This document shows positions 1,396-21,124 of a DNA stretch of 64,000 bases, one piece after another. Each line of letters opens with the position of its first letter. The first letter of the stretch is position 1. Source of the DNA: Vibrio gazogenes (GTDB taxonomy: Bacteria; Pseudomonadota; Gammaproteobacteria; Enterobacterales; Vibrionaceae); assembly GCF_002196515.1 (NCBI RefSeq), contig NZ_CP018835.1, forward strand, positions 2,294,001 to 2,358,000, in the 5' to 3' direction. The notes under the pieces are model-generated. The model saw only the letters and a list, made by a program, of their open reading frames with translations. It had not been told where the DNA came from and did not search any database. The position numbers and the translations under genes are program-made.

Positions 1396-3363
1396 GTGAT
1401 GAATGAATCAAGTCATCGACACGGACTAGCCAGACCTAAAATTCTATCTGTATTGATTTTTGCAGCGTTAGCCAGTAGCGCAGCCTCTGCTCAGGTAAGT
1501 ATCGATTATTCGATTTCACCTGACGAACAAAATCATAAAATCAGCGAGTTAATTTATGGTACCAATCATCGAATGAATATGACGGGCCATGAAAACTTTG
1601 GTTTCTATCGCCTCGGCGGCAACCGGACAACCGCTTATAACTGGGAGAATAACTACTCCAATGCAGGCTCTGACTGGGTGCATTCCAGTGACACCTATAT
1701 GGTACCGGATGGTGCCGATGAAACCATTCCGGGGATTACGCTGACCGATTTTGTCGATAATGACGCAGCCGGGGCGAAAACGATGCTGACCGTGCCATTG
1801 GCTGGCTACGTTGCCGCGGATAAGAATGGTACGGTACAGGAAGGGGAAGTTGCCCCGTCATCTCGCTGGATTCCGGCCATAGCGAAAAAAAATGCCCCGT
1901 TCTCATTAACGCCAGATCTCACCGATAATGCGGTGTATACCGATGAAATGGTCAACTTTTTAGTTGAGCGATACGGACGAGCAGCCGATGGTGGCGTATT
2001 TGCTTACTCACTGGATAATGAGCCCAGCCTGTGGTACCACACCCATTCACGAATCCATCCGGACAAACCGGGCGCCAAAGAGCTGGTGGACCGCTCTATT
2101 GAAGCGGCTCAGGCCGTCAAAGGCGTAGACCCGACAGCGACTATCTTTGGCCCTGCTTTGTATGGTTTTACCGCATTTGTATCGTTGACTGATGCACCGG
2201 ATTGGACGAACTATTCAGATCAGTATCACTGGTTTATCGACTACTATCTGGCACAGATGAAAGCGGCTGGTGAATCATCCGGTATGCGCTTATTGGATGT
2301 TCTCGACCTGCACTGGTATTCCGAAGCGAGAGGAGATCAACGTGTCACCGATGGCAATGCTGACTCCGTGAAAGATAAAAATGCGCGGATGCAGGCTCCT
2401 CGGACATTTTGGGATCCTGAATATCAGGAAGATAGCTGGATAGCCCAATGGAATATGGCTGAGCTACCATTGATACCGCATATTCAAGACTCAATCGATA
2501 TGCATTATCCGGGAACCAAGATGGCCTTCACTGAGTACGGCTTTGGCGGTGGTGATGATATTACCGGTGCGATTGCTGAAGCGGATGTATTGGGTATTTT
2601 CGGTAAATATGACGTCTATGCTGCAAACAGTTGGATTTTAAATGATGAAGAGAAATATTTAGCCAGTGCCTATCGTCTCTATCGTAACTATGATGGTGAG
2701 AATGGGACATTTGGTGATACCAGTGTCACCGCAACAATGAGCGATAAAGAAAACAGCTCTATTTATGCGTCGGTTGATTCAGAAACTGGATTACTTCATG
2801 TCATTGTGTTGAATAAGAATATGAACGAGTCAATCAATGGTGTGTTCAATATCGATTCAACAACCATCTATAAGTCAGGAAAGACTTATGTCTTGAATTC
2901 CGATTCAGTTGAGATCCAGGATAAAGGTGAGGTTGAGGTGACGAATAATCAGCTCAATTATGATATTCCAGCCTTGTCTGCTTATCATATTGTCTTTAGT
3001 ACAGCAGACGCCACTGACCCGACAGATCCAACAGATCCAACAGATCCAACAGACCCGACGGATCCGACAGACCCAACGGATCCAACCGACCCAACGGATC
3101 CCGGCACTGATGGTGTCACTGTGTCTGTGAACATTCCACAAGATGGTAGCGCATCATACTGTTCTGATATCGTTGTTACCAATAATGGTTCAGAAGCCGT
3201 TGAATGGCAGACTAATTTTGACGTCGAAGGTAGTGTTTATGCGTTATGGAATGCAAATTGGGAACAATCAGGTACGACAGTAACCATTAGCGGTGTTGAA
3301 TGGAACAAAGTGCTGCAACCGGGTGCCAGTACCAGTTCTATTGGGTTCTGTGCGAATCGTTAA
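1396..3363 (+). CDS. GH44 endoglucanase/xyloglucanase with DPT linker and C-terminal CBM2-like module
   Basis: Secreted beta-1,4-glucanase of family GH44, which attacks cellulose and xyloglucan. A cytoplasmic leader and hydrophobic signal segment end near ASSAASA (about residue 32). The catalytic region (about 35-530) shows the family marks FYRLGGNRTTAYNWENN, SLDNEPSLW with Glu209 as expected acid/base, and FTEYGFGG with Glu380 as expected nucleophile. Residues 541-567 are nine Asp-Pro-Thr repeats forming a linker. The last 85 residues resemble a CBM2-type cellulose-binding module, with Cys residues near both ends and spaced Trp residues (VEWQTNF, WNANWE, VEWNKV). GTG at 1396 and ATG at 1399 are both possible starts behind AGGAG at 1383. 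The domain order matches a cellulose-anchored enzyme; the exact substrate is inferred. Confidence 0.92.
   Translation: MMNESSHRHGLARPKILSVLIFAALASSAASAQVSIDYSISPDEQNHKISELIYGTNHRMNMTGHENFGFYRLGGNRTTAYNWENNYSNAGSDWVHSSDTYMVPDGADETIPGITLTDFVDNDAAGAKTMLTVPLAGYVAADKNGTVQEGEVAPSSRWIPAIAKKNAPFSLTPDLTDNAVYTDEMVNFLVERYGRAADGGVFAYSLDNEPSLWYHTHSRIHPDKPGAKELVDRSIEAAQAVKGVDPTATIFGPALYGFTAFVSLTDAPDWTNYSDQYHWFIDYYLAQMKAAGESSGMRLLDVLDLHWYSEARGDQRVTDGNADSVKDKNARMQAPRTFWDPEYQEDSWIAQWNMAELPLIPHIQDSIDMHYPGTKMAFTEYGFGGGDDITGAIAEADVLGIFGKYDVYAANSWILNDEEKYLASAYRLYRNYDGENGTFGDTSVTATMSDKENSSIYASVDSETGLLHVIVLNKNMNESINGVFNIDSTTIYKSGKTYVLNSDSVEIQDKGEVEVTNNQLNYDIPALSAYHIVFSTADATDPTDPTDPTDPTDPTDPTDPTDPTDPTDPGTDGVTVSVNIPQDGSASYCSDIVVTNNGSEAVEWQTNFDVEGSVYALWNANWEQSGTTVTISGVEWNKVLQPGASTSSIGFCANR
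3016..3096 (+). repeat. Nine 9-bp repeats encoding (Asp-Pro-Thr)9
   Basis: Tandem 9-base units of the type GAY-CCN-ACN encode nine Asp-Pro-Thr triplets. Codon choice varies between units, so the tract is not a recent perfect expansion. It is a typical interdomain linker in secreted glycosidases. Slippage could vary its length between strains. Confidence 0.95.
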
Positions 3364-6779: not shown

Positions 6780-6831
6780 GCTTATTATTTAATGCTTATG
6801 GATAAATAGTATGACTAGGAAGGGTTCTAAT

Positions 6832-7311
6832 ATGTTGATAGGAAAGGAAATTACTGAAAACGAAGTTATGGAAGAAATTGCTGAGGTTCTTGAGCTGGAA
6901 AGAGAAGAGGTTGAAATGGAATCATCTCTTATTGATGACTTAGGTGCCGATTCTCTAGATTTAGTTGATATATCTTTTTCTTTAGGGAAACGCTTTGGAC
7001 TGAAGCTACCCACTAAAACAACCTTGGTTGTTGCTCAGGAAATGATGCCGACCGACGGTGTTTTTATCGACCAAGGCAAGTTAACCGAATTGGGAGCGCG
7101 ACTCCTTCAAGAAAGTCCAAACCAATATTCTGAACAGGATATTCAGCCCAATATGAATGTCGATGTACTTCTGAGCCAAACATTGGTACGTCACTGGTAT
7201 GAGTTATGTGCCCATATTAATCATCATCCAAGTCAGGATGGCGATACGGCTATTCAGGAATATGTGGTGAGTTTTTTTGAAAAACATGGGCTGGATACCA
7301 AAGCCGCCTAA
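6832..7311 (+). CDS. Acyl carrier protein with long C-terminal extension
   Basis: The first gene of the cluster. Residues 1-75 are a standard type II ACP with LIDDLGADSLDLVD; Ser41 is the expected phosphopantetheine site. After the ACP helices, about 80 further residues follow, with no family I recognise (DGVFIDQGKLTELGARLL, then a His/Trp-containing part RHWYELCAHINHHPSQD and a helical end). A normal ACP is near 80 residues, so this is twice the usual length. A start at 6811 is possible, but AGGAAGGG at 6817-6824 is ideally placed for ATG 6832. The protein would carry the growing chain for the ketosynthases that follow and present it to the reductase of the aminotransferase fusion. No phosphopantetheinyl transferase is encoded here, so a housekeeping one must activate it. 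Confidence 0.88.
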   Translation: MLIGKEITENEVMEEIAEVLELEREEVEMESSLIDDLGADSLDLVDISFSLGKRFGLKLPTKTTLVVAQEMMPTDGVFIDQGKLTELGARLLQESPNQYSEQDIQPNMNVDVLLSQTLVRHWYELCAHINHHPSQDGDTAIQEYVVSFFEKHGLDTKAA

Positions 7312-7345
7312 TAAAACATCGTAGGAAAACTCAAAAGGATTTGTT

Positions 7346-8587
7346 ATGAGACATGTGGTCATCACCGGGCTAGGGGTGTGTGTACCGACGAAAAGGTCCC
7401 CGGACAATCTTTTTCAAGCACTATTTAACCAAGAATCATTGATTCATAAAGATAATAGACTTGAAAGTTTTGGTATTCATGATTTTGTTTGTGCAGCAAT
7501 GCAAGCGAGTGATCTCTCCTATTTGGATGAACACTATCCAGAATTAGCGAAGCACAACGTCAGTACCAGTGGAAAAATGGCTTACCATGCTTTAATAGAA
7601 GCTAAAAATCAGGCAGGGCTCGATGTAGGAGCCCATTCTGAGCGCTTTGGGCTATTTTTTGGGGTAAATAAAAATTTAATATCCCCTGAACAGATTCATC
7701 GTATGCATATGCTGGCAAAAGATTCAGCGCCATATGATGGACAGTCTGATTACTTACCGTATCGGCCTGATGCAATTGTAAAGGTGATGTCGGAAAAGTT
7801 GCAGGTCAATCAACCTATATTGGTGTGCTCTGATGCTTGCGCTGCTGGTTCCAGCAACATCCTTGCAGGCATGCGCCGTATCAGAAATGGTGACTTAGAC
7901 GTTGCTTTTTGTGGTGCGGCGGACGAAGGTTCACAGCCGATGATGCAGTTGGTTTTCCATAAAATCGGGGCTGTTGGTACACCTGTTTTTTCTGAGCCTC
8001 AAGAGGTCTGTCGACCTTTTGACAAAGACCGAAATGGCTGTGTACTTGCCGACGGCGCTGCATTTCTTGTGCTGGAAGCTGAAGAAACGGCTCTGGCCAG
8101 AGGTGCCCAAATTCTGGCAAGGCTTAGTGGCGGCAGCCGAGGTTCTGAAGCATATAAAATTACCGCGTCTAAACCGGACGGAAGCTATTATGCGTTAGCC
8201 ATGCAACAGGCTTTAAATGATGCTCACCTGACGCGTGATGAAATTGATCATATTAACGCTCATGGTACGGCAACAAAAAGTAATGATGCTGCAGAAGGAA
8301 GGGCGATTCATCAACTATTCAAAGATCAAGTACCGGTGACTTCAACGAAATCTGCACTTGGACATTCGCTGGCCGGAAGTGGTGCTCTTGAAGCGGTATT
8401 GAGTGTGCTGTCCTTAAATGAGCAAAAAATATTACCGACATTAAATTATACCGGGCCAGCAGAAGGTGAGGCTGAACTTGATATTGTCAGCCAGCCTCGC
8501 ACGACCGAAATGAACCATATTTTAAGTAATTCATTTGGCTTTGGCGGATTGAACACCAGCTTGATTTTTTCAAGGGGGAATATATGA
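7346..8587 (+). CDS. Beta-ketoacyl-ACP synthase, catalytically complete (KS1)
   Basis: A 413-residue FabF/type II PKS ketosynthase. The catalytic triad is intact: Cys165 in SDACAAGSS, His306 in INAHGTATKSND, and His340 in KSALGHSLAGSG. The N terminus (RHVVITGLGVCVP) and the GFGGLNTSL end are typical. It should decarboxylate malonyl-ACP and condense it with an acyl chain. AAAAGGA lies before the ATG at 7346. Its stop overlaps the start of the next gene by four bases (ATGA), suggesting translational coupling with the inactive partner as in KS/CLF pairs. No acyltransferase is present, so malonyl-ACP probably comes from FabD of primary metabolism. Confidence 0.92.
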   Translation: MRHVVITGLGVCVPTKRSPDNLFQALFNQESLIHKDNRLESFGIHDFVCAAMQASDLSYLDEHYPELAKHNVSTSGKMAYHALIEAKNQAGLDVGAHSERFGLFFGVNKNLISPEQIHRMHMLAKDSAPYDGQSDYLPYRPDAIVKVMSEKLQVNQPILVCSDACAAGSSNILAGMRRIRNGDLDVAFCGAADEGSQPMMQLVFHKIGAVGTPVFSEPQEVCRPFDKDRNGCVLADGAAFLVLEAEETALARGAQILARLSGGSRGSEAYKITASKPDGSYYALAMQQALNDAHLTRDEIDHINAHGTATKSNDAAEGRAIHQLFKDQVPVTSTKSALGHSLAGSGALEAVLSVLSLNEQKILPTLNYTGPAEGEAELDIVSQPRTTEMNHILSNSFGFGGLNTSLIFSRGNI

Positions 8588-9684
8588 ATCAGCCAGTTTA
8601 TTTACGTCGTGGAGAAACTCTCCTTCCTCATCATACAACGTTAACGTCACTGTTTTTGGGCGATCAATCCCTTCATTTTGAACCGATTGATTATGCCGAA
8701 TCTATCGAACGACATGCATTTGGTGCTTATCTTGCTGATGAGTCACTCAAGGATATTAATGCTGGGAGAATGATTCGAAAAACGAGTGAGAAACAGGCTC
8801 GGTGGCTCATCGCTACTGCTGTACGGACATGGCAATTGATTCATGGCGAGTCACAAGGCGGGCCTCAGACCGGCCTTTTTCTCGGACTCGGGACCATTGA
8901 TTACTGTGAAACGCCGGAACCCCATCAACTCGAAGAGAAAACATTGGCATGTTTCAGCGATGTGATGTGCCGAGAAAGTAATCCGTTAACTGGCTTAATC
9001 ATGCTTAACAGCTCTGCTGCAAGTCATATTGCTCAACTCACGGGAATTACCGGATGTAACAGTTGTTTTTCTCCTCATATTGATGCGGGTGCAGAAGCGA
9101 TATTTGAAGCGTATTCACATGTGCGAGAGGGGTTGGTTAGTCAAGCCTTGTTTGGTGGTGGCAGTCAGAAAATATCGCCATGGTATTTGCTGACTTATGA
9201 CCGTGATTTTGCTGACCAACAGACGCTTTATCTGACCGAAGCATCATCTTTTGCCGTGGTCACGAAAGAGCGAACAATGGCGGAGGCTGAGTTGCTTGCG
9301 GCATATCGTGGTCGACTATCGAATGGTGGGGATGCATTACATTTGTTGCTTGAGCGAGCGTTGAACGATAAAGGCGCAGAAGCAAACCACACCATTTCCC
9401 AAATCATCTGTACCGGAATCGGTGCGTACCAAGATGCATTATTACAAAGCGTCAAGACGCTGGGTATCGAGGTTCCGCTCATCTTCATTGAAGATCAACT
9501 TGGATATTGCGGTGCCAGTGCTCCTACGATTGCCTTGAATTTAAGTTTGGAACTGATGCAAGCGAAAATGAATTTGCACCATGACGCTTCATGCCAGCAT
9601 GGTGAAATGAATCGTGTGCTGATTCTCGCTTTTGGTCCCTCCGGTTTAGTGAACTATTTCCTTGTAGGAGGATTGCATGAGTAA
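8584..9684 (+). CDS. Degenerate ketosynthase, chain-length-factor-like partner of KS1
   Basis: A 366-residue thiolase-fold protein related to ketosynthases but without a recognisable active site. The region where the nucleophile should lie reads TGITGCNSCFSPHIDAGAEA and does not align its Cys to the usual position. The HGT histidine block is replaced by CTGIGAYQD, and the K-x-x-x-G-H block by EDQLGYCGASAP. It begins inside the KS1 stop codon and overlaps KS3's start by eight bases. In type II systems such an inactive subunit pairs with the active KS and shapes chain length, so this is the probable role. Decarboxylation or priming activity cannot be excluded. Confidence 0.75.
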   Translation: MNQPVYLRRGETLLPHHTTLTSLFLGDQSLHFEPIDYAESIERHAFGAYLADESLKDINAGRMIRKTSEKQARWLIATAVRTWQLIHGESQGGPQTGLFLGLGTIDYCETPEPHQLEEKTLACFSDVMCRESNPLTGLIMLNSSAASHIAQLTGITGCNSCFSPHIDAGAEAIFEAYSHVREGLVSQALFGGGSQKISPWYLLTYDRDFADQQTLYLTEASSFAVVTKERTMAEAELLAAYRGRLSNGGDALHLLLERALNDKGAEANHTISQIICTGIGAYQDALLQSVKTLGIEVPLIFIEDQLGYCGASAPTIALNLSLELMQAKMNLHHDASCQHGEMNRVLILAFGPSGLVNYFLVGGLHE

Positions 9685-10960
9685 CCGAGTATTAGTGACA
9701 GGCATTGGGATTGTCAGCGCATACGGTATCGGTCATGAATGTTATTGGCAGGGCATTCGTCATGGTCAGTCTTTAGTGAAGTCATGGAAACTGAAAGGTC
9801 TTGACGATTTCCCTGTGAAGTACGCAGCACCGATAGAAACGGATATTGAGCACCTCACACGGGACTATCCATCGCTCTTTAATCGAGACACACAACTTGA
9901 GCGGCGGGCTATTTTCGGCATGATCGCTGCGCAGGAAGCATTAAGAGATGGACAAAAGGCGCTTGATCGACATGACGTGATGGGGGTTTGTGCTTGTAGC
10001 GGTGTTCCGGATGCTGATGATTATACATTTACCCAAATTGGGACGATGTCGCCCCAAGACTCTCTGACCACCCTAATGCGTGAAAGAGACCAAATGATCC
10101 ATCATATCAATGGGCTTCGCGCGGGAAATGACATGCTTTCCCGACAGATTGCTGAACAGTTTGATATGAATGGCCCCGTGATGAATATCAGTGGAGCTTG
10201 TGCCGGAGCGACACAGGCCATCGGTTTAGCTTATCGGGCCATCGCTCGTGGAGAGTCTGACTGTATGTTAAGTGGCGGTGGCGACTCTGTACTGAATGTT
10301 AGAACGCTGAGTGCTCTCTATCTACTGGGAGCAACATCGACAACCGCACGTTGGGGGGATCAGTTATGCCGTCCATTCGATGTGGATCGTTCTGGTCTGG
10401 TGGCTGGTGAAGGTGCGTGTTTCTTGTTACTAGAAAGTGAAGACAGCGCTCTGAAACGTGGTGCCAAAATATATGGGGAGATTGTTGGTTACGGCAGTTC
10501 TTTAGATGCGTATAAAGTGACAGCACCTCACCCTGACGGAGAAGGGGCGATTGCATCGATGCAATGTGCACTTAACGATGCGGGATTAGCCCCAGGGCAG
10601 ATCGAATACATTAATGCTCATGGCACCTCGACACCGCTAAATGATGCGATTGAAACCCGAGCTATCAAATCTGTGTTTGGTCAGCATAGTCAGGATGGCT
10701 TAATGGTTTCTTCGACTAAATCGATGATCGGTCACTGGATTGCAGCAGCAGGAGCCCCAGAAGCAGCGGCATGTTTATTAGCGTTGAAGCATCAATGTGT
10801 TCCTCCGACCATGAATCTTGAATCTCATGATCCTGAATGTGATTTAGATTATGTCAAAGATCAGGCTCGGGATGTGAATGTGAACTACTGCTTATCAAAC
10901 TCTTTCGGATTTGGTGGGTTGAATGCAACGCTGGCGATGGGACGGTATATTCATGAATAA
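9677..10960 (+). CDS. Beta-ketoacyl-ACP synthase, catalytically complete (second KS)
   Basis: A 427-residue ketosynthase with intact triad: Cys175 in ISGACAGATQA, His315 in INAHGTSTPLND, and His353 in KSMIGHWIAAAG. It starts VLVTGIGIVSAYG and ends SNSFGFGGLNATLAMG. It is clearly distinct from KS1, so the cluster has two separate active condensing enzymes. GTAGGAGG lies just before the ATG at 9677. Its stop overlaps the start of the next gene. Together with its downstream partner it forms a second KS/CLF-like pair, perhaps for chain initiation or for a different length range; that division of labour is inference. Confidence 0.92.
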   Translation: MSNRVLVTGIGIVSAYGIGHECYWQGIRHGQSLVKSWKLKGLDDFPVKYAAPIETDIEHLTRDYPSLFNRDTQLERRAIFGMIAAQEALRDGQKALDRHDVMGVCACSGVPDADDYTFTQIGTMSPQDSLTTLMRERDQMIHHINGLRAGNDMLSRQIAEQFDMNGPVMNISGACAGATQAIGLAYRAIARGESDCMLSGGGDSVLNVRTLSALYLLGATSTTARWGDQLCRPFDVDRSGLVAGEGACFLLLESEDSALKRGAKIYGEIVGYGSSLDAYKVTAPHPDGEGAIASMQCALNDAGLAPGQIEYINAHGTSTPLNDAIETRAIKSVFGQHSQDGLMVSSTKSMIGHWIAAAGAPEAAACLLALKHQCVPPTMNLESHDPECDLDYVKDQARDVNVNYCLSNSFGFGGLNATLAMGRYIHE

Positions 10961-11954
10961 ACCTAATATTGCAATTCTCGGGTATGGGGCTGTTTTCCCC
11001 CGCGGAGAGTTTAACGTTAAATTTTCCACCCAAGAGACAACAAATGAACGGCAAAAGCCAATTTCACGCCAAATCAAAAGAGCGATGTCTCCCAGTGCAG
11101 CCAGCGCAATCACTGCAACGGAACATGCGCTCTCAATGGCAAAGTTTGATCCAGAGGATAAAAAGGGACGCGTCGGTTTATACGCCGGACAATATGGTTA
11201 TTTAAATCCGACACTGAGTGACTTTCAGGCTGCACTGGATGAAAGTGATTTATCAGACTCTGCCGATCATGTGCAGGTTTTTCGTGAACTATGGTATTCG
11301 AATCGTGTGAGTCCTTTCTTGCTGACCAATATTCTGAATAACAATATTCTGGGAATGTTGAGCCTGCATTGGGGGATTACTGGTGACTCCGGTGCTTTTA
11401 TTCGAGATAGCCTAGGAAGTACATGTGCTTTGCAGGATGCCGTTGATAATTTGCGATACGGTGAATGTGACATTGCCGTGGTCGCTTGTGCCGGCTCTCA
11501 AGAATCTGATCTTGGGCGGCAGTCGTTCACTCATCCTCACAGTGATGAATTTGGTGCAGTCACATTGATACTAGCGCGTGCTGATGAGGTTAAACCCGAG
11601 CATGTCCAAGGATATTTGGAGTTTTTTGATTACGGTTTTTCACATCTTCACTTATCTGAACAAATTCAATCTTATCTCAGCAGAGAAGATGTTCAGGGAC
11701 TCTCACATGACCTTCACCATTATGCTGGTTCTGATTCTTGGCTACAGGATATCCCCGCCACAGCATCATTAAAACAGTTTGATTTCTGTCAAGTCGGTGG
11801 AACACGTGGCTGCCCGGGGATTTTAGCCTCGATTGTTGCAGCACTCCAGTTTTATCAGAACCAATCGGAAGTTCATCGCTATATCACCGTCTCGGGGGAC
11901 AACCGAGATTACCTATCTGTCGCTGGTATACGGAAAGTATCAGGAGATTTTTAA
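10953..11954 (+). CDS. Shortened degenerate ketosynthase, partner of the second KS
   Basis: A 333-residue thiolase-fold protein beginning NKPNIAILGYGAVFPRG. The nucleophile position, judged from the spacing to LRYGECDIAV, falls at a Ser in RDSLGSTCALQDA; a Cys lies five residues later. The HGT block is missing and the K-x-x-x-G-H block reads QVGGTRGCPG. It is about 80 residues shorter than a normal ketosynthase. An upstream in-frame ATG at 10923 lies inside the preceding gene; ATG 10953 overlaps only the KS stop and gives the family-like N terminus, so I prefer it. A structural chain-length-factor role is likely. Confidence 0.72.
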   Translation: MNKPNIAILGYGAVFPRGEFNVKFSTQETTNERQKPISRQIKRAMSPSAASAITATEHALSMAKFDPEDKKGRVGLYAGQYGYLNPTLSDFQAALDESDLSDSADHVQVFRELWYSNRVSPFLLTNILNNNILGMLSLHWGITGDSGAFIRDSLGSTCALQDAVDNLRYGECDIAVVACAGSQESDLGRQSFTHPHSDEFGAVTLILARADEVKPEHVQGYLEFFDYGFSHLHLSEQIQSYLSREDVQGLSHDLHHYAGSDSWLQDIPATASLKQFDFCQVGGTRGCPGILASIVAALQFYQNQSEVHRYITVSGDNRDYLSVAGIRKVSGDF

Positions 11955-11957
11955 CCA

Positions 11958-14816
11958 ATGAATCGCTATCAAAAGTATTGTAAACCTCAGTTGGCGGAAG
12001 CCTTACACGCTTTGGGGTTGGATAAGGTATTTCATCGAGCTCAGGGCGCAAATCTTTACTATCGTAATGAACAAGATCAAGAACAGGAAGTTCTTGATCT
12101 GCTTGGCGGATACGGTGCCACGTTATTGGGGCACAATCACCCCGACCTGATTGAGGTTGCCAAGCACAGTTATGACCGATTACTGCCGTTCAATAATCAG
12201 TTCTCTTTACGGCAGGGGGCTGCTTTATTGGCCGAAAAGTTGAACCGGCTGTTGAAAGAAGAGACGGGTTGGGCGGAAGACTTTCTGTTTTCATTCACCT
12301 CTACCGGTGCCGAATCTGTGGAGATTGCCCTGACTCATGCGGAAAGAAAACGTTCTGAACACGTCGATCTAGTTGCAGAAGAAGCGGACTTTTCTCTTTC
12401 ATCTTTGGCGAAAGATGATGCGTTCACATTTGAATTGACGGATGAGCAATGTCAGTTGCTTGGTGTTGAAGGACATGAGGATTCTGAAAAGTTGATGACA
12501 TTGATTCGGCATTTTAATGCGGAACAAGTCGCGCGTCAGCCTCATTTTGTCGCTTTGAAAAATGCCTTTCATGGCAAACTGGCAAGTTCGATCCAACTGA
12601 CACATGGTTCGATGTACCGAGAGCACTACCATCATCTCGGTCTAAAAGTTCATTTCATGCCAATCGCAGAAATAGAACAGCGGATGGAGCCATTGCAAAA
12701 GGAAACCGCAGCATTTGTGTTTTCTGTGAAAAAGCGTGGCAATACGGTCTCGCTGATACAGAAAGATATTCCCATGATCTGCGCTATTCTTGCTGAGCCG
12801 GTTCAGGGGGAAGGCGGCATTCATTGTCTAACTGAAGATGATGCCCATCGACTCCATCAAGCACGTACATTTTGGCAGTGCCCATTAATTGCAGATGAAG
12901 TTCAATCAGGGTCTGGTCGTTGTGGCAGCTTGTTGGCAGGACGAGATATTGGTCTGCGCCCCGACTATGTTGTGCTTTCTAAGGCATTAGGCGGCGGTAT
13001 TGCGAAGATCGGTTTTGTGGCGATTCGAGCATCGATGTACTGTCATAAATTCGACTTGGTGCAAAGTTCGACCTTTGGTGAGGATGAACATTCAGCTGCG
13101 ATTGCCAGTGCCTATCTGGACCTATTGTATGCAGATAATAAGCAACGTTTACAGCAAGTTCATGAGTTGGGCGAAACGATTCAGTCTCGATTGACCCGAT
13201 TGAAAGAGGCCTATCCTGATGTGATTGCGGATGTCCGGGGTCGGGGACTATTAATTGGGATCGAGTTTAATTCTCAGGCTGACGCACCATCAATCATGTT
13301 TCGTGGTATGGATTACCAGGAGTCTTTGGGATATGTCGTGACCGGATTCTTGTTGAATCAACACCATATTCGAGTCGCACCATCATCGAGTGCGCCAAAT
13401 GTTGTCCGTTTAGAACCGAATTTGTGTCTGACTGCTCATGACATTGAGCGTTTAATTGCGGCTTTTGACGATGTCTGTCGGGTTATTCAGTATCAGGATG
13501 CTTACTATTTTCTGAAGCATTTATCGCAACCTGTGGCTACACGAAATGTACGTCAGTCACTGAAAGACTTTCGGTCTCATTTCCCTGAGTTACCGCCTCA
13601 ACCTGAAGCCGAAGCGGATGTGAAAGTGGCTTTTGTCAATCACCTGATCTCATCTGATTGGATGTGGCAGGTTGACCCTTCGATGGAAGGTGTGCCACCA
13701 GAAGAGAGTGATTACTTACTCAAACGGTTGGGTTTTGACTGGCGTGCTGCGCCATTTCCACCGATGCGAGTGACATCGGCAACCGGTGTCACGGGTGACT
13801 TTATTCTTTATCCGTTAGCGGTCACATCAGCAGAAATCGAACAGATGATGCAAAACAATGAGCTGGAAAAAATCCGTGAAGCGATTCGTGAACGGGTGGA
13901 AGCCGCCCGGGATGATGGTTGTAAAGTCGCAGGGCTTGGTATGTTTACATCTGTTGCGACAAATAACTGCAAGTCGGTCAAAGTCCCTGGGATTGGATTG
14001 ACGACCGGTAATTCGCTGACAGTTGGCATGGCGATTGAGATGGTATTGCAGACGGTCGAGGAAAAACAGTTAGCGATTCATAAGACGGCTGTTATTGGCG
14101 CTGCGGGGAATATTGGTACTGTTTATGCCGCGATAGCAGCAGATTTTAGTGAACAGCTGATTCTTATCGGCAGTGGACGTCATGGGTCACAAAAACGCTT
14201 GCTGAAGGCTGCCTACAGTATTTATGAAACGATCTGGTCAGAAGTCCTTGCAGGGAAGCGAGACTCTCGTCTGGGAATGCGAATGAGTGAACACCCCCAG
14301 TTGCAAGCGTGGCTCAATCAGCCAGAGCTTATCCCTGATGAAGCCATTGGTCAGCAGATTTTCGAGTTGATGCAAGATCAATCCATCCCCGCGCCGATTG
14401 TACTGAGTGACGATATTGAACTGATTCACCAGTGTGATTTAGTGGTCTGTGCAACCAATGCATCGTCTTCATTTTTAGATGTTGAATTGATTCGATCAAA
14501 TGCCATCGTCTGTGATGTCTCGGTTCCACATAACATCAGTCAGGAAGCGCTTGATACCCGCCCCGATATCGTATGTATCCGTGGTGGTGTCGTCAGCACG
14601 CCCGGCGGTGCCAGCCTTGATGCCAGAGCAAGAGCATATCTCAATGCCGGGGAAGTTTACGCATGTATGGCAGAGTCGCTCACGCTTGGTTTAGAAGGAG
14701 AATACGGACACTACTCTTATGGCGACTTGAGTAAATCTCAAGTGACACGAATCCTCGATATGGCAAAAAAACATGGATTTGGTCTCGCTGGAATCAAATC
14801 ATTGGAGTCGATGTGA
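11958..14816 (+). CDS. Class-III aminotransferase fused to acyl-ACP-reductase-like domain
   Basis: A 952-residue fusion. Residues about 30-490 are a PLP-dependent class-III aminotransferase: GGYGATLLGHNHPDL, STGAESVEIA, EPVQGEGGIH, IADEVQSGSGR, and the PLP-binding Lys342 in LSKALGGG. An insertion of about 50 residues (roughly 135-190, acidic) separates GAESVEIA from NAFHGK. Residues about 550-952 resemble the long-chain acyl-ACP reductases of cyanobacteria: GAAGNIGTV (NADPH site near 713-721), a conserved RGGVVSTPGGASLD, and CMAESL followed by KKHGF at the end. Cys831, Cys852 and Cys873 lie where a catalytic thiol might be; I cannot choose between them. The expected reaction is acyl-ACP to aldehyde, then to primary amine, as proposed for TamH in tambjamine biosynthesis. 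The gene is placed between the condensing enzymes and the reductases. Confidence 0.85.
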   Translation: MNRYQKYCKPQLAEALHALGLDKVFHRAQGANLYYRNEQDQEQEVLDLLGGYGATLLGHNHPDLIEVAKHSYDRLLPFNNQFSLRQGAALLAEKLNRLLKEETGWAEDFLFSFTSTGAESVEIALTHAERKRSEHVDLVAEEADFSLSSLAKDDAFTFELTDEQCQLLGVEGHEDSEKLMTLIRHFNAEQVARQPHFVALKNAFHGKLASSIQLTHGSMYREHYHHLGLKVHFMPIAEIEQRMEPLQKETAAFVFSVKKRGNTVSLIQKDIPMICAILAEPVQGEGGIHCLTEDDAHRLHQARTFWQCPLIADEVQSGSGRCGSLLAGRDIGLRPDYVVLSKALGGGIAKIGFVAIRASMYCHKFDLVQSSTFGEDEHSAAIASAYLDLLYADNKQRLQQVHELGETIQSRLTRLKEAYPDVIADVRGRGLLIGIEFNSQADAPSIMFRGMDYQESLGYVVTGFLLNQHHIRVAPSSSAPNVVRLEPNLCLTAHDIERLIAAFDDVCRVIQYQDAYYFLKHLSQPVATRNVRQSLKDFRSHFPELPPQPEAEADVKVAFVNHLISSDWMWQVDPSMEGVPPEESDYLLKRLGFDWRAAPFPPMRVTSATGVTGDFILYPLAVTSAEIEQMMQNNELEKIREAIRERVEAARDDGCKVAGLGMFTSVATNNCKSVKVPGIGLTTGNSLTVGMAIEMVLQTVEEKQLAIHKTAVIGAAGNIGTVYAAIAADFSEQLILIGSGRHGSQKRLLKAAYSIYETIWSEVLAGKRDSRLGMRMSEHPQLQAWLNQPELIPDEAIGQQIFELMQDQSIPAPIVLSDDIELIHQCDLVVCATNASSSFLDVELIRSNAIVCDVSVPHNISQEALDTRPDIVCIRGGVVSTPGGASLDARARAYLNAGEVYACMAESLTLGLEGEYGHYSYGDLSKSQVTRILDMAKKHGFGLAGIKSLESM

Positions 14817-15568
14817 TGACGAAGCAAACAAGTAATCGGACAGCATTGGTCACAGGTGCAACTCGCGGTATCGGACGGGGCGTCGCTCTCAGTCTTGCAG
14901 CAAAAGGATATGATGTTGCTTTTTGTTATCGTCGTGACGAAAACCTTGCCAATCAATTGGCATCAGACATTTCTCAATATGGTGTGAATGCACTTCCTAT
15001 TCAGGCTGATGTCGCGGAATACCAAGATATCGAATCCATGTTTAACCAGATTAACTACCGATTCGGACACTTGGATGTGTTGGTCAATAATGCCGGGATA
15101 ACTCGCGATGGGTTACTCGCAACTATGAGTGATGATGACCTGTGGGCGGTGATTCGGACGAATTTGATTGGCACGATGATGTGTAGCCGTGAAGCCGTGA
15201 AAATGATGATGACACAGCGACATGGTTGCATCATCAATATCTCTTCCATTTCTGCTACGAAACCGAATAAAGGCCAGAGTAATTACGCTGCAACGAAGGG
15301 CGGTGTTGAGTCGTTTACCCGCGCTTTAGCGGTTGAAGTCGCTCGGAAAAATATTCGGGTCAATTGTATTGCACCTGGTGTGATTCAAACGGAAATGGTC
15401 GGTGAACTCTTGGCTGACAGTGGTGATTTGATTCGTAAGAAGTTACTCGCGAAGCGTCTGGGTAATCCAGAAGATATCAGCAAAGCCGTGCTTTATCTTG
15501 CAGACCCTGAAAATGATTTCCTCACAGGAGAAATACTTTCAGTCAATGGCGGCATGATGCTGCTTTGA
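14816..15568 (+). CDS. FabG-like 3-ketoacyl-ACP reductase (SDR)
   Basis: A 250-residue classical short-chain dehydrogenase. It shows TGATRGIG at residues 14-20, NNAG, Ser144, and Tyr157-x3-Lys161 in SNYAATKGG. The residue after the second strand is basic (CYRRDEN), which favours NADPH. It ends LTGEILSVNGGMMLL, as FabG proteins do. It is the natural beta-ketoreductase for the two ketosynthases. A GTG at 14813 is possible; ATG 14816 sits 8 bases after GGAG and overlaps the preceding stop. No dehydratase or enoyl reductase accompanies it, so either housekeeping FabZ/FabI complete each cycle or hydroxyls remain in the product. Confidence 0.9.
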   Translation: MTKQTSNRTALVTGATRGIGRGVALSLAAKGYDVAFCYRRDENLANQLASDISQYGVNALPIQADVAEYQDIESMFNQINYRFGHLDVLVNNAGITRDGLLATMSDDDLWAVIRTNLIGTMMCSREAVKMMMTQRHGCIINISSISATKPNKGQSNYAATKGGVESFTRALAVEVARKNIRVNCIAPGVIQTEMVGELLADSGDLIRKKLLAKRLGNPEDISKAVLYLADPENDFLTGEILSVNGGMMLL

Positions 15569-15593
15569 AGTGGTGAGTCGTTTTGAGGTGATT

Positions 15594-16355
15594 ATGGTGT
15601 GTAAAACAGCATTAGTGACCGGTGCCGCGAATGGTATCGGTTCGGCAACAGTGAGGAAATTAGTCTCACATGGTGTCACGCATATTTTAGCGTTGGATAG
15701 AGACGAGAGCGGATTGGCGTCGCTTGTGTCAGAGATGGCCGGTTCAGTCAATATTATTCCGGTTGTGCTCGACCTGAAAGATATGGATGTTTATGAGCAG
15801 TTACTCGGGCCTTATTTAAACGACATTGAGCAGTTGGATACAGTGGTGATTAGTCACGGTGTCTCTGATGAGAACGCACTGGCGGATCATCAGGTTTGGG
15901 ATAAGGTGATGAATATCAACCTCAATGCAACCCGTTATCTCCTGTCCTTGCTTGAGAATAAATTGGGACAGGGTAGCAGTGTGGTGGTGATTGCCTCGAT
16001 ATTGGCGAAAGTCGGCAAACTGAGAAATACCGCCTATTGTAGTTCGAAGCACGGACTCATGGGCTTAGTGAAAGGGCTTGCGTTGGACTGGGCCAGACAG
16101 GGGATTCGTGTCAATGCGGTTCTCCCGAGTTGGGTTGATACGCCAATGCTGCGTCGAGAACTGCAAAAACAAGGGGATATGACCGGGACATCGATGAATC
16201 AGATGCTGCGTCAAATCAAAAAGCGGATTCCGCTTCGAGCTTTGGTGAGTGCAGAAGATATTGCCGATAGCATTATTTTTTTGGCATCACCACAAGCCAA
16301 GATGATTACCGCACAGTCACTCATTGTTGATGGAGGTGATGGATGCGGCGTCTGA
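15594..16355 (+). CDS. Second short-chain dehydrogenase, NAD-type
   Basis: A 253-residue SDR with TGAANGIGS, ISHGV in place of NNAG, Ser135, and Tyr148-x3-Lys152 in AYCSSKHG. An Asp after the second strand (LALDRDESG, Asp35) predicts NAD(H), unlike the NADPH-type FabG-like enzyme before it. It may oxidise an alcohol or act on the released chain; its substrate cannot be read. An upstream GTG (15570) is in frame, but GAGG at 15585-15588 points to ATG 15594. Its 3' end overlaps the outer-membrane gene by 13 bases. Confidence 0.85.
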   Translation: MVCKTALVTGAANGIGSATVRKLVSHGVTHILALDRDESGLASLVSEMAGSVNIIPVVLDLKDMDVYEQLLGPYLNDIEQLDTVVISHGVSDENALADHQVWDKVMNINLNATRYLLSLLENKLGQGSSVVVIASILAKVGKLRNTAYCSSKHGLMGLVKGLALDWARQGIRVNAVLPSWVDTPMLRRELQKQGDMTGTSMNQMLRQIKKRIPLRALVSAEDIADSIIFLASPQAKMITAQSLIVDGGDGCGV

Positions 16356-17551
16356 TCATTGGCGCGCTGGCAATGTGCTTTATGTCAGTTGCATCTGCCA
16401 AGGCTTACATTGAACCTCGGGTGGGTGCCCGGGTTGGTTACCATTTGAGTGGGGGGGATGATCCTTTTACGGTTCAGCAGTTATTTGCCGGATTGAAGTA
16501 TGAGAATGAGTTTGAACAAGTCGAGTTTAAACTGGATACCGAGTTCAGCCATGACTTTGTTTACGACAGTCAGAATAACTACAGCACTCAGGCAGAAGAT
16601 GACCTTGAAGATTATTGGAAGGTTGATGATGCCTACTTTTCCTTTGAACTCTTCGATGCCTATTGGACGCTAGGCTATCAAAAAGTGGTGTGGGGGGAAG
16701 CGGATGATTTGCGCGTTGTTGACGTCGTCAATCCGCTCGACCTGCGAGACTTCGTCTTGTTTGATGTGGATGAGTACCGAGTCGCCTTGCCAATGCTGAA
16801 AGTCGAACAATATATCGGTGATGAATCGAATCTCAGCTTCCTGACCGTTTTTCAGTATCAGTCTAATCGCTATGCACCGGCTGGTGCAGAATTTGGTGAT
16901 ACGGCATTTTCTGGATTAGATGAACGGAAAGCCGGTCATCTCGAATTCGGAATCCGGTTCAATACCTATTGGATGGAAACCGATGTCAGCTTGTATAGCT
17001 TTTATGGGTATGAAGATGATCTTTTCAGTATCCCTGACAGTGCCGGAAATATCCAAAAGCCACTCAATCGATTCAAGATGTTCGGGCTCAGTACCAGTAA
17101 GGCAATTGATAACTGGGTTATTCGTACTGAATGGCTGTATGAAGATGATTTGAAGGTGATGGATTCGTCAGCAAACTTGGTGGCAGTGAATAAATATCAA
17201 GGGTTGCTTGGGTTGGACTATCGCTATCGGGACTGGACAGCAACGTTTCAGTATACCGACAGGCGATATGATGACTGGCAGCAAACACTAACGGTCACGC
17301 ATACCGATCCGACGATTACGTTCTCACTTGAACGTGAATATCTCTCGGGACGTCTCAGTTCTCGTCTGGCAATAACCTATATGGATGTTTCCGGCGGCGG
17401 TCGTTTGGATCAGCTCAAGTTGACATACAAATACAACGCAAAAACTAAGTTCAACCTCAATTTGGATAGTCTGAGTGGCAACCAAAATAACCTGCTCGGT
17501 CACTTCCGTGAGCAGGACAGAGTTTGGTTGGCTTTGACATATTATCTCTAA
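16343..17551 (+). CDS. Outer-membrane beta-barrel protein, DUF1302-like
   Basis: A 402-residue exported protein. A signal peptide (RRLIIGALAMCFMSVASA) is followed by many alternating amphipathic strands rich in Tyr and Trp (VGYHLSGGDD, DAYWTLGYQKVVWGEADD, LDYRYRDWTATFQY), ending in a hydrophobic strand VWLALTYYL. The YQKVVWGEAD block is typical of DUF1302-type proteins that occur beside LolA-like and RND genes. GGAGG at 16332 lies before the ATG. Its place between the enzymes and the transporter suggests an outer-membrane exit or acceptor for the product. Family assignment is from memory of such gene neighbourhoods and is moderately sure. Confidence 0.72.
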   Translation: MRRLIIGALAMCFMSVASAKAYIEPRVGARVGYHLSGGDDPFTVQQLFAGLKYENEFEQVEFKLDTEFSHDFVYDSQNNYSTQAEDDLEDYWKVDDAYFSFELFDAYWTLGYQKVVWGEADDLRVVDVVNPLDLRDFVLFDVDEYRVALPMLKVEQYIGDESNLSFLTVFQYQSNRYAPAGAEFGDTAFSGLDERKAGHLEFGIRFNTYWMETDVSLYSFYGYEDDLFSIPDSAGNIQKPLNRFKMFGLSTSKAIDNWVIRTEWLYEDDLKVMDSSANLVAVNKYQGLLGLDYRYRDWTATFQYTDRRYDDWQQTLTVTHTDPTITFSLEREYLSGRLSSRLAITYMDVSGGGRLDQLKLTYKYNAKTKFNLNLDSLSGNQNNLLGHFREQDRVWLALTYYL

Positions 17552-17560
17552 GGGTCTGTT

Positions 17561-18394
17561 ATGAAACACTATTTAATAATTGCAGCTTTACTTTACGCAG
17601 GCTTATCTGTTGCCAGCGAGAATGTGAATACGATTTTAACCAAGGTCAGAGATCGAAATGATGGCCATGACTATGTCTCTCAATTGACGCTGGTGAATAA
17701 AACGGAAGGCCGTATGGTCAATAAGCGTCAGATGTTGATGTTACAGAAGGACATTGATACGGACGAGGTGATGGTCTTAGCTGTACAAGCGCCGGTGGAT
17801 GTCCGAGATGTGAGTTTTCTGATTAAAACCTATCAGGAAGCCAAAGGAGAGGAGGACGAACAGTGGATGTTTTTACCTGCGTTCCGTAAGGTTCGCCGTA
17901 TCTCGTCTCAGGATAAGCGCGGCGCCTTTATGGGCAGCGAATTTGAATATTTTGATTTGGATAAGTTACGGGTGTCTGACTTCAACTCGAAGATCTTAAG
18001 AGAGGAGAAAGTTGGCGAACGGCCCGCTGTCGTCATTGAACGGATTCCCGTCTCTCAGGATGTCATCAATAAATCTGGATATCACCGTGTGATTGTTTGG
18101 ATCGACAAGGAGAGAGAGATCGTATTGCGCCAAGATTATTACAATGCCAAAGGGATTTTATTTAAACGACAACATACCGAGTCGGTGGAACAGATTCAAA
18201 ACATATGGACCATTATGCATTCAGTGATGGATAACCTTGTCGAAGGAAAAAGTAGTGAACTTATCTACAAGCAGACCCAATACAATGTCGGACTGGATGA
18301 CAAACTATTCCGAAAAGGTAAGTTAAAGCGGGGCTATAAGATGAGTGATTTGCCCGACTCCGTTAGCTTTTCGACAGCGCAGGAGAATAAATGA
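17561..18394 (+). CDS. LolA-like outer-membrane lipoprotein-sorting family protein
   Basis: A 277-residue periplasmic protein with a signal peptide (KHYLIIAALLYAGLSVAS). The mature part resembles the LolA-like (pfam17131-type) fold: repeated TLVNKTEGR-like strands, WMFLPAFRKVRRISSQDKR, MGSEFEYFDLDKL and YHRVIVWIDKE. Such proteins form a hydrophobic half-barrel and are usually encoded next to RND/MMPL transporters. It probably takes a lipid-like product from the transporter and hands it to the outer membrane. Its stop overlaps the start of the transporter gene. Confidence 0.82.
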   Translation: MKHYLIIAALLYAGLSVASENVNTILTKVRDRNDGHDYVSQLTLVNKTEGRMVNKRQMLMLQKDIDTDEVMVLAVQAPVDVRDVSFLIKTYQEAKGEEDEQWMFLPAFRKVRRISSQDKRGAFMGSEFEYFDLDKLRVSDFNSKILREEKVGERPAVVIERIPVSQDVINKSGYHRVIVWIDKEREIVLRQDYYNAKGILFKRQHTESVEQIQNIWTIMHSVMDNLVEGKSSELIYKQTQYNVGLDDKLFRKGKLKRGYKMSDLPDSVSFSTAQENK

Positions 18395-21024
18395 TGGCTG
18401 AGCGTTATCTCAATTTTGTTTTTCGTTATCCGAAATCTATTTTGGTTTTGCTCGTTTTAATTACCGGCTATTTTTTGATGGCTTTGGGAAATTTGAGTGA
18501 AGACAACAATCCTTATTTTTTACCGGAGAGCCATCCAGCTCGACATGCTATTTATGAAATCAGGGAGGAGTTCACCGGCACTTATGATTCAGTTTTAATT
18601 GTTCTCTACAATCCAGATACGATTTTTAATCAAGCCAGTCTTGATGCGATTTTTGAACTGACGAAGCAGTCACGTGTGATGACATTTGTTGATGAGACCG
18701 ACGAACAACGCTTGATTGCGATTCGGGATCGTTACACGGATCAGCCTCAACTTGGACAGGTCATTGATCAAATTTTGGCTGATGGCCTGACACAAAGTGA
18801 TGGCTATCTTGCCCGTGACCTGTATGAGCAGAGTGCTGAATGGGGAATCCGTGATGAAGACCGCCGTTATATTTCGGTCTTTGCTGAGCGAGTAGAGCCG
18901 ATACGGGAAATGGCGGGTTTGGCTGCGACGGAAAATGTATTCATTGATGATGACGGGACAATTATTGCGCGTAAAACCATCAATAATTATGGCCAAGACC
19001 CAGAAGTCATTAAAGGTGCTGTCCTCGATAATGAATTGATGGAAAAGGGGACCGTTGATCCGTCGGGTCATGTCGCGATGATTACGGTTGAGCTTAGTCT
19101 GCATTCTGATGACGCTTATGGACAGGTCAGAGCTTACGAACAATTTAAGCAGATGGTTGCGGATTACCGGGCAAGTCATCCAGAATTTAAGGATGAGGTT
19201 TATGTCGGTGGGGTCCCGGTATTTTTTGCGGCTCAAAAACAAGTTATCGATCATGATTTCGGAACATTACTTCCTTTGGTCTTATTGCTGATTGCGGTCA
19301 TTCTTGCTGTCTTTTTCCGTTCAGTGTTAGGCGTCGTTCTCCCTCTACTCAATGTCGTGATGTGTACGATTTGGACTTTGGGGATGATGGCGATTATCCA
19401 GGCACCATTGGATATTATTACTGCTGTATTGCCTGTATTTTTGATTACCATTTGCTCGTCAGACGCCATCCATATGATGGCAGAGTATTATCATCAGAAG
19501 AAAATTCAGAAAAGTCGCCTTCCTGCACTCAGAAAGGCCACGTTGTTGATGATCTCTCCGGTTGTTCTCACGACTGTGACGACCTGTTTTACGTTCACTC
19601 TTTCCACATCAACAAGTATCGAGAGTTTACGCAATTTTGGTATTTTCATTTCTTTTGGGATGTTTGTTGCACTGATCATTTCTTTATTGTTAATCCCTGC
19701 TTGTCTGGCGCTGTTCCCTGGAAAATCAAAGGGGGTCACTGAGCACACCGAGGTGGAGGAAAGTGAAGAAAGGGCCGTTGCGAGAAAATATTTGATTAGC
19801 CGTATCTTGATTGCTGCATTGCAACCCGTGATTCACAATCGCGGCATTTTTACGGGGATTTTCATTCTGCTACTTGGTGGTGCATCATTTCTCGCCACGC
19901 AGGTGAAAATTGATGACATGGGAAGTGGCTATTTTGCAAAAGATAGTGTGTTTCGCATTGCAGATACTTTCATCAATGATCATATCGCAGGCACAAGTCC
20001 GGGATGGGTTCAGGTTGATTCCGGTAGCGCAAATGGTGCACTCAGTTTAAAAATGCTTCGTTTTATAGATCAACTGGAAACGTTTATCCATCAACAAGAG
20101 TATGCCACATATAGCTATTCGGCTGCGCGCTATGTTCGTCGTATTAACTACACCTTGAATGATTTTGAACCGTCATATAATCGTCTTCCTGAGGATGTTG
20201 AGCGGTTTGTTGAAATTGATCCGGATACCGGAGAAAAATATGACGTTGAGATCTCTGGGCGTGACATTGTCCGTCAGTCGATTCTGATGTACGAAAATAG
20301 TGGCGGAACGGATACGACAAATGTGTATAACGAAGATTTCTCTAAAACCGTATTGTTGTATACATTAGGGACGACAGTTGCGAGTGACTATCAAGCATTT
20401 TTGGGCAAACTACGGCCGTGGTTAGCAGAAAACACCCCACAAGGCTATCAAGTGAAACTGGCTGGCTCTCCCGTGATTTGGACCGCAGTGCTTGATGCTT
20501 TGGTGATGAGCCAAACTCAAAGCGCTGTAATCGCATTGTTCATTGTCTTGGCTGTCATGAGTTTGTGGATGCGTTCGCTTAAATTGGGAATTGCCGGCAC
20601 GTTGCCCTTAGTGACGACTGTCATGTGTTATTTCTCGCTCATGACAATCTTGGACATTGAGCTGAATATCGGGACTGCGATTATCTCATTTTTGGTGTTA
20701 GGGATCGTCGATTACTCCGTGCACTATATCTTGCGAATTCAATTAGAGCTCAAGCAGGGGGGAACGATTGATGAAGCGCTGTTAAATGCGGTGAGTGTTT
20801 CTGGACGAGCGATTATTGCGAATGTTTTGGTTTTCAGTATAGGGTTTGTCGCACTGTTATTCTCTCAATATAAGCCTTTAGTGGATCTCGGTACATTAGT
20901 TGGTTTATCCCTGTTGATTAGCGGCATTATGACGTTGTTTGTTGTCACGCTATTCGCCCCTTGGTTCTTTTCAGGCATGCAGCGGGAAAAAGTGAATGAA
21001 AAAGAAGCTTTGTCAGTGAACTGA
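18391..21024 (+). CDS. RND/MMPL-family lipid exporter
   Basis: An 877-residue inner-membrane protein of the MMPL/HpnN type. Residues near 15-35 form the first membrane helix; a periplasmic loop follows (about 40-280) and then a cluster of helices including VLLLIAVILAVFFRSVLGVV. The pattern repeats in the second half (loop near 500-690, then helices to the C terminus). An Asp-containing helix typical of proton coupling (ICSSDAIHMMAEYYH) and its counterpart (LGIVDYSVHYILRI) are visible. It should extract a hydrophobic product from the inner membrane. ATG 18391 and ATG 18394 are both possible behind AGGAG at 18381. It is the last gene of the cluster. Confidence 0.88.
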   Translation: MMAERYLNFVFRYPKSILVLLVLITGYFLMALGNLSEDNNPYFLPESHPARHAIYEIREEFTGTYDSVLIVLYNPDTIFNQASLDAIFELTKQSRVMTFVDETDEQRLIAIRDRYTDQPQLGQVIDQILADGLTQSDGYLARDLYEQSAEWGIRDEDRRYISVFAERVEPIREMAGLAATENVFIDDDGTIIARKTINNYGQDPEVIKGAVLDNELMEKGTVDPSGHVAMITVELSLHSDDAYGQVRAYEQFKQMVADYRASHPEFKDEVYVGGVPVFFAAQKQVIDHDFGTLLPLVLLLIAVILAVFFRSVLGVVLPLLNVVMCTIWTLGMMAIIQAPLDIITAVLPVFLITICSSDAIHMMAEYYHQKKIQKSRLPALRKATLLMISPVVLTTVTTCFTFTLSTSTSIESLRNFGIFISFGMFVALIISLLLIPACLALFPGKSKGVTEHTEVEESEERAVARKYLISRILIAALQPVIHNRGIFTGIFILLLGGASFLATQVKIDDMGSGYFAKDSVFRIADTFINDHIAGTSPGWVQVDSGSANGALSLKMLRFIDQLETFIHQQEYATYSYSAARYVRRINYTLNDFEPSYNRLPEDVERFVEIDPDTGEKYDVEISGRDIVRQSILMYENSGGTDTTNVYNEDFSKTVLLYTLGTTVASDYQAFLGKLRPWLAENTPQGYQVKLAGSPVIWTAVLDALVMSQTQSAVIALFIVLAVMSLWMRSLKLGIAGTLPLVTTVMCYFSLMTILDIELNIGTAIISFLVLGIVDYSVHYILRIQLELKQGGTIDEALLNAVSVSGRAIIANVLVFSIGFVALLFSQYKPLVDLGTLVGLSLLISGIMTLFVVTLFAPWFFSGMQREKVNEKEALSVN

Positions 21025-21092
21025 TTCGGTTTGAGCTGAACAATTAACGTCAACAGCCCCTAGTAAAATCAGTGTCATACCAGTATTGAAGA

Positions 21093-21124
21093 GAAGTAGC
21101 CGAGGTTCGGTTACTTCTTTTTTA
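21093..21124 (+). terminator. Intrinsic terminator closing the biosynthetic cluster
   Basis: An 11-bp stem with one G-T pair (GAAGTAGCCGA with TCGGTTACTTC), a 3-base loop and a T run. It lies 69 bases after the transporter stop. Confidence 0.9.

Follow-up and report, generated by a model that had tools for sequence, protein, structure and literature searches.

What is the task of a single protein that joins an aminotransferase to an acyl-acyl carrier protein (ACP) reductase in a Vibrionaceae genome with prodigiosin genes, and whose product would it release? We address this question for a stretch of 64,000 nucleotides from Vibrio gazogenes (NCBI RefSeq assembly GCF_002196515.1, contig NZ_CP018835.1, positions 2,294,001 to 2,358,000 of the forward strand; hereafter the window), in which positions 11958 to 14816 encode a fusion protein of 952 residues. 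Judged by its sequence, this protein very probably releases the chain in a type II polyketide pathway of the koreenceine type. Enzymes of this kind, their domain order and the kec gene cluster have already been published, and kec-like clusters are tabulated for two Vibrio and three Photobacterium genomes in the material drawn on from PMC10829540.

Domains and catalytic residues of the fusion protein

The following features of the fusion gene, all given in window coordinates, are referred to below.

11958-14816, + strand: KecF-type aminotransferase/acyl-ACP reductase fusion, 952 residues, ATG start
11958-13502, + strand: N-terminal class III aminotransferase part, residues 1-515, with Asp313 and Lys342, the lysine for pyridoxal phosphate (PLP) (Pfam Aminotran_3, CrmG alignment, Foldseek)
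12330-12560, + strand: residues 125-201 with the CrmG/KecF-type insertion, 77 residues versus 23 in ArgD
12981-12983, + strand: codon of the PLP lysine Lys342, present in 33 of 33 aligned rows
13617-14792, + strand: C-terminal acyl-ACP reductase part, about residues 554-945 (profile, predicted fold)
14097-14117, + strand: GxxGxxG nucleotide-binding motif with Gly714, Gly717 and Gly720 (sequence)
14664-14666, + strand: codon of the predicted catalytic Cys903, in ACMAES (aligned with the cysteines of acyl-ACP reductase and PigE; 28 of 28 rows)

In one chain, a class III aminotransferase precedes an acyl-ACP reductase (AAR) of the cyanobacterial type; this order of the two parts is confirmed. Pfam Aminotran_3 covers residues 26-505 (E 1.3e-55), and the standalone aminotransferase CrmG (5dds) aligns to residues 15-514 (E 1.4e-86), insertion included; the motifs DEVQ and SKALGGG, the latter with Lys342, lie at residues 313-316 and 341-347. 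The Pfam search of the two halves suggested by the original prediction thus identified the first of them, and found no family above cut-off for the second. A profile built from ten C-terminal halves and compared with the PDB recovered PigE (4ppm, E 3.8e-48) and the cyanobacterial AAR structures 6jzq (E 2.3e-40) and 6jzu (E 3e-40), with values for 6jzq, 6jzu and 6jzz ranging to 4.3e-38.

Structure prediction agrees with these assignments. The full-length model (predicted local distance difference test [pLDDT] 81, predicted template-modeling score [pTM] 0.74) connects the two parts through a low-confidence linker at residues 525-552. CrmG chains occupy Foldseek ranks 1 to 18, and all of the 50 matches listed concern the aminotransferase part; among the 50 VIA-align 2 matches listed for the whole model, which comprise class III aminotransferase folds at Z 37.3-40.5 with PigE included, CrmG does not occur. 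Because the full-length Foldseek matches listed covered the aminotransferase part only, the C-terminal half was folded separately (mean pLDDT 88.7, pTM 0.89). Its AAR fold is confirmed at the level of this predicted model: it superimposes on 6jzy with Z 35.6 and a root mean square deviation of 2.6 over 323 aligned residues, Foldseek likewise finds 6jzy (E 7e-20), the carmabin TAD follows at Z 30.5-32.2, and the next unrelated fold reaches Z 13.6. Sequence identity to AAR over the fold is 18-20%. The resemblance to cyanobacterial acyl-ACP reductases noted from the letters alone is therefore borne out by both profile and fold.

Residue conservation was counted in 33 aligned rows, in 28 of which the reductase part is aligned; a Bdellovibrionaceae row (L061) interrupted by a stop codon or frame break was excluded from counts and trees. 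Lys342, whose presence was a point on which the original prediction hinged, is retained in every row (33/33). The proposal that the two domains should jointly convert an ACP thioester to an amine is supported. The catalytic cysteine, sought earlier among Cys831, Cys852 and Cys873, is almost certainly Cys903, a residue then overlooked: it is kept in all 28 rows, and in the profile alignment it falls on the FACFAEA cysteine of AAR, Cys294, and on the CMAE of PigE. In AAR, Cys294 carries the acyl chain according to the published description, in which the equivalent residue of the tambjamine enzyme TamH is Cys887 (PMC9594044). All three earlier candidates exist in the protein. Cys831 occurs in 10 and Cys873 in 3 of the 28 rows; the conservation of Cys852 in 27 of the 28 fusion rows is a point in favor of that residue, but its column holds isoleucine in AAR and PigE. 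Since Cys903 is both conserved and aligned with the AAR and PigE cysteine, and Cys852 is not so aligned, the three are most likely wrong, and we reject them as catalytic residues.

The kec gene cluster and its distribution

The fusion gene is the sixth of eleven in a tight, co-directional run at window positions 6811-21024. In addition to the fusion, the run and its immediate downstream region comprise the following.

6811-7311, + strand: acyl carrier protein, kecA equivalent, with the phosphopantetheine site GADSLD
7346-8587, + strand: ketosynthase (KS), kecB equivalent, Cys-His-His present
8584-9684, + strand: chain-length-factor (CLF)-like ketosynthase, kecC equivalent, without catalytic Cys
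9677-10960, + strand: ketosynthase, kecD equivalent, Cys-His-His present
10923-11954, + strand: CLF-like ketosynthase, kecE equivalent, without catalytic Cys
14813-15568, + strand: FabG-type ketoreductase, kecG equivalent, relative of PpFabG4/PP_2783 (9ng1 match)
15570-16355, + strand: second short-chain dehydrogenase, kecH equivalent
16343-17551, + strand: 402-residue protein, kecI equivalent, without Pfam match
17561-18394, + strand: LolA-like outer-membrane lipoprotein-sorting protein, kecJ equivalent
18391-21024, + strand: MMPL-family exporter, kecK equivalent
21088-21122, + strand: terminator-like hairpin of 16 pairs followed by a T-run, past the last gene (consensus match only)

By gene content and order, this is a complete koreenceine-type (kec) type II polyketide cluster. 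It displays the kecA-E succession of an ACP, two KS and two CLF genes, kecF directly after kecE, the kecG/kecH pair and the terminal envelope/export genes kecI-K, and thereby the eleven-gene order described for Pseudomonas koreensis kecA-K, a cluster that yields koreenceines A-D, alkaloids of the tetrahydropyridine type (PMC6498172, in the portion consulted). These alkaloids are coniine-like antibiotics. The FabG protein of the window has 9ng1 as its only PDB match at E <= 1e-60; this structure is reported to be PpFabG4, that is PP_2783 of the Pseudomonas KT2440 cluster, for which antiSMASH gave a 100% match to the koreenceine polyketide synthase (PKS) (PMC12490732). Neither Pfam nor NCBIfam assigns a family to the 402-residue protein, and Pfam assigns none to its counterpart in the Pseudomonas-sample locus L149. 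The listed start of the kecE equivalent overlaps the preceding KS gene by 38 bases (10923-10960), and an ATG near 10953 is the likelier start. Scans of the cluster for promoters (16 matches versus 26.1 in shuffled sequences) and terminators (18 versus 13.4) gave uninformative counts. Upstream of the cluster region, at window positions 50-829 and 1396-3363, lie two cellulase-type genes, GH5 and GH44, the latter joined to CBM2 and a long linker of DPT repeats.

Using the genes of the window as queries in blastp and tblastn taken together, we compared the cluster with loci carrying related fusions. All eleven kec genes were recovered in three of the five uncut Pseudomonas-sample loci of the fusion type (L149, L151, L152), and L148 and L150 yielded ten each, with one CLF below threshold; L135, from P. 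tehranensis, is cut by a contig end after FabG. The full set is also present in two loci from the genus Photobacterium (L036, L041) and in L165, and ten of the eleven genes are present in L166. In the Streptomyces loci L052 and L054 the first eight kec genes are present and the last three were not found, as published for koreenceine clade C.

For the distribution of the enzyme, the reductase half was adopted as the query because matches to the whole protein came through the aminotransferase part alone: with the whole-protein query, 41 of 41 genomes matched in this way, and a full-length match was confined to the V. gazogenes genome itself. Matches with E <= 1e-85 were taken as fusion type, and the samples were drawn evenly, overlapping in this genome. 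In the family sample any match was found in 11 of 247 genomes and a fusion-type match in three, namely in V. gazogenes and two members of the genus Photobacterium. Corresponding numbers were 9 and 3 of 394 for the order, V. gazogenes included, and 7 of 369 for the class, with the fusion type only in V. gazogenes; the genus of P. tehranensis yielded 27 and 13 of 149. A contig scan with the single fusion protein returned no match, and a contig scan with alignment A2 returned at least 80 loci, mostly ordinary aminotransferases, which is no measure of distribution.

The aminotransferase insertion and the phylogeny of the two halves

Between GAESVEIA (residues 117-124) and NAFHGK (202-207), the fusion protein has 77 residues where the ArgD protein encoded at position 22049 of the window has 23; the extra stretch of about 50 residues originally predicted is thus real. 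In the model it forms a long helix (117-151) and helices at 162-168 and 176-191. Its description as unusual for the class does not hold within the subfamily, and the insertion is no peculiarity of the fusion protein from V. gazogenes: 21 of the 33 rows carry the long form (72-82 residues), 12 the short one (17), and the standalone CrmG aligns across the region without a large gap. Because it is shared by these rows and CrmG, the insertion is a subfamily mark, probably with a structural role. The 'roof' over the active site of CrmG is reported to hold F207, K210 and W223 (PMC7438487), which correspond in our alignment to F204, K207 and Y220 of the fusion, just past the insertion. The acidic character attributed to the insertion is a property of this copy (16 D/E and 8 K/R in residues 125-201) and not of the family: the excess of D/E over K/R is 8 here, the highest value found, and ranges from -6 to 5 across the remaining 20 long-form rows.

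The trees of the two halves agree with each other. The protein from the window and two rows from the genus Photobacterium group together (100/100 for the aminotransferase, 99/96 for the reductase part), and both join the Streptomyces and Pseudomonas fusions in one clade (100/98 and 100/99, respectively). PigE lies outside this clade, as do the insertion-free fusions, with the exception of the long-branched L058, a row with a short stretch that the aminotransferase tree puts with the long-stretch rows. For these trees, the Thioclava (L050) and Methylocystis (L051) proteins, which have the domain order of PigE, were cut by position. Beside the Streptomyces fusions, the aminotransferase clade includes three standalone actinobacterial aminotransferases with the same insertion (L055, L059, L040). 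Forcing the fusions to be monophyletic without them costs 17.3 log units (approximately unbiased test, p-AU 0.037), in a test made on 20 of the aligned rows and with a group defined once the tree was known; this gives a hint that CrmG-like standalone enzymes may have arisen through loss of the reductase.

Two domain orders in one genome and the predicted release reaction

A 2011 review of Vibrionaceae metabolites records prodigiosin for V. gazogenes and V. ruber, the only relevant point in the part consulted (PMC3225927). A prodigiosin cluster is indeed present in the genome studied here: PigB, PigC, PigD, PigE and PigJ score above the NCBIfam cut-offs at about positions 201356-218645 of the same contig (locus L048). 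One might hence suppose that the fusion serves prodiginine synthesis in the manner of PigE, which joins the same two domains and whose model NF053554 hits the fusion in four stretches. We consider this highly improbable. PigE (4ppm) carries its reductase N-terminally and its aminotransferase C-terminally, so that both parts align with the fusion in stretches and in reversed order; NF053554 scores 271 bits for the fusion against a cut-off of 850, and 1392 bits for the true PigE of the genome. The latter resides in the pig cluster at about 209 kb, far from the fusion at 2.31 Mb, whose neighbors are kec and not pig genes, and PigE stands outside the clade in both trees. Domain order and score rule out membership of the fusion in the PigE family. 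Both domain orders, KecF in the window and PigE in the pig cluster, coexist in this genome. Six other genomes of the family sample with a PigE-like match pattern (G186, G188, G203, G239, G060, G070; assigned from the pattern only) had no fusion-type match.

Related fusions were observed in further settings. Those with the domain order of PigE in Thioclava and Methylocystis are located on plasmids in prodiginine-like clusters and adjoin PEP/pyruvate-binding, ACP, AMP-binding and ketosynthase/PKS genes. Insertion-free aminotransferase-AAR fusions occur on plasmids of Rhodovulum (L037) and Haematobacter (L038), each with an adjacent gene for a VPLPA-CTERM protein; no PKS gene is annotated within the 26 kb shown for these two loci. 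In genome G360, a frame of 3012 residues (L045:8033-17071) lies near an MMPL-like gene and contains, at residues 2030-2969, an aminotransferase-AAR module. Diverged fusions stand beside LolA-like and MMPL genes on a plasmid of Leisingera thetidis (L039:11602-15789, 1395 residues) and in L046, which also has two AMP-binding genes, and L047; as these three loci carry both, amine release and the LolA/MMPL export pair recur together.

The chemistry of release proposed for the V. gazogenes enzyme is one that we infer from published relatives. TamH from Pseudoalteromonas tunicata is described as having the same domain order, 941 residues, Lys340 and a putative Cys887, and CrmG as the structural relative of its aminotransferase part with the highest coverage. 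It differs in belonging to the tam cluster, in which an adenylating TamA-ACP, and no type II PKS, feeds a linear C12 acid. TamH is reported to reduce C12-ACP with NADH, not NADPH, and to transaminate the aldehyde with L-Glu to the C12 amine; with C12-CoA no amine was formed (all PMC9594044). Cyanobacterial AAR (6jzq, 6jzu, 6jzy, 6jzz) shares the fold, the Gly-rich region and the Cys294/Cys903 position, but is a standalone protein of about 341 residues that feeds alkane synthesis (PMC9594044). CrmG of the caerulomycin pathway (5dds) shares the inserted stretch before the FHGK motif and lacks a reductase. The Pseudomonas proteins KecF and PP_2782 (PpKTFusion) share domain order, insertion, active-site residues and eleven-gene order, as judged from their counterparts in the Pseudomonas sample, which are frames of 956-1068 residues; PP_2782 itself measures 959 residues by its published domain limits (PMC10829540).

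These relatives also furnish the points that weigh against our assignment of the enzyme to a koreenceine-type pathway. According to the portions of the reports on which we draw, KecF was not assayed in vitro, the two release steps on a polyketide and subsequent spontaneous ring closure having been proposed for it (PMC6498172); for PP_2782, aminotransferase activity was shown, thioester reduction was not determined, and tests for alcohol dehydrogenase activity were negative (PMC10829540). Our Pseudomonas-sample loci are tied to koreenceine by gene order, L149 also by its FabG, which matches 9ng1 at E 7.6e-126, and not by accession, and two weaker matches from that sample (L153, L154) do not display the kec gene set. 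Identity between the V. gazogenes and Pseudomonas fusions is 37-39%, that of the first KS 34-36% and that of the 402-residue protein 27-29%, and the first CLF is more diverged as well. In the literature consulted on koreenceine and on Vibrio type II polyketides, no product of a Vibrionaceae kec cluster was found. The findings on PP_2782, together with the lack of a Pfam reductase family above cut-off, would also suit an enzyme whose C-terminal half has lost thioester reduction, so that the aminotransferase works alone. This is very unlikely in our view, considering that the Photobacterium, Pseudomonas and Streptomyces fusions, at 37-49% whole-protein identity, have retained Cys903, the Gly-rich region and the AAR fold.

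Since the V. gazogenes protein keeps all the parts, Lys342, Cys903 and the AAR fold, a two-step release is the best reading. The two KS-CLF pairs would extend a medium-chain acyl group on the ACP of the cluster, and both short-chain dehydrogenases would reduce it. Cys903 would then take the chain off the ACP as a thioester, which a nicotinamide cofactor would reduce to the aldehyde. The aldehyde would go on to the N-terminal aminotransferase, whose Lys342-bound PLP, recharged from L-glutamate or another amino acid, would convert it to a primary amine. If a ketone stood at the right distance, this amine would close spontaneously to a tetrahydropyridine, and the LolA-like and MMPL proteins would export it. 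Ring closure and the identity of the product can be transferred less firmly here, because the first KS and the 402-residue protein have diverged from their Pseudomonas counterparts to the extent given above.

With the same chemistry, the product might instead be a fatty or polyketide amine in linear form, which does not cyclize or becomes attached to a further molecule. TamH, which makes a linear C12 amine according to its published description (PMC9594044), sets a precedent, and KS1 and CLF1 are among the proteins most diverged from Pseudomonas. Yet the full kec gene set with both KS-CLF pairs and both reductases is present, and no ligase gene is seen within 6811-21024; we therefore regard a linear product as unlikely. 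As the fusion, KS1, CLF1 and the 402-residue protein have all diverged, product and chain length may still differ from koreenceine. We tentatively propose, at somewhat less than even confidence, that the product of the Vibrionaceae kec branch is an amine or alkaloid other than koreenceines A-D, differing in starter, chain length or ring state, and that the cell employs enzymes of opposite domain order to release two different alkaloid chains.

Collectively, these findings locate a complete koreenceine-type antibiotic pathway, as far as gene content and order indicate, in a member of the Vibrionaceae whose genome contains prodigiosin genes as well, and they fix a likely catalytic cysteine, Cys903, for mutagenesis. 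The two fusions of opposite order in one genome offer a natural test of whether domain order affects the hand-over of the aldehyde, and the enzyme class to which they belong is useful for making fatty amines from carrier-bound acids.

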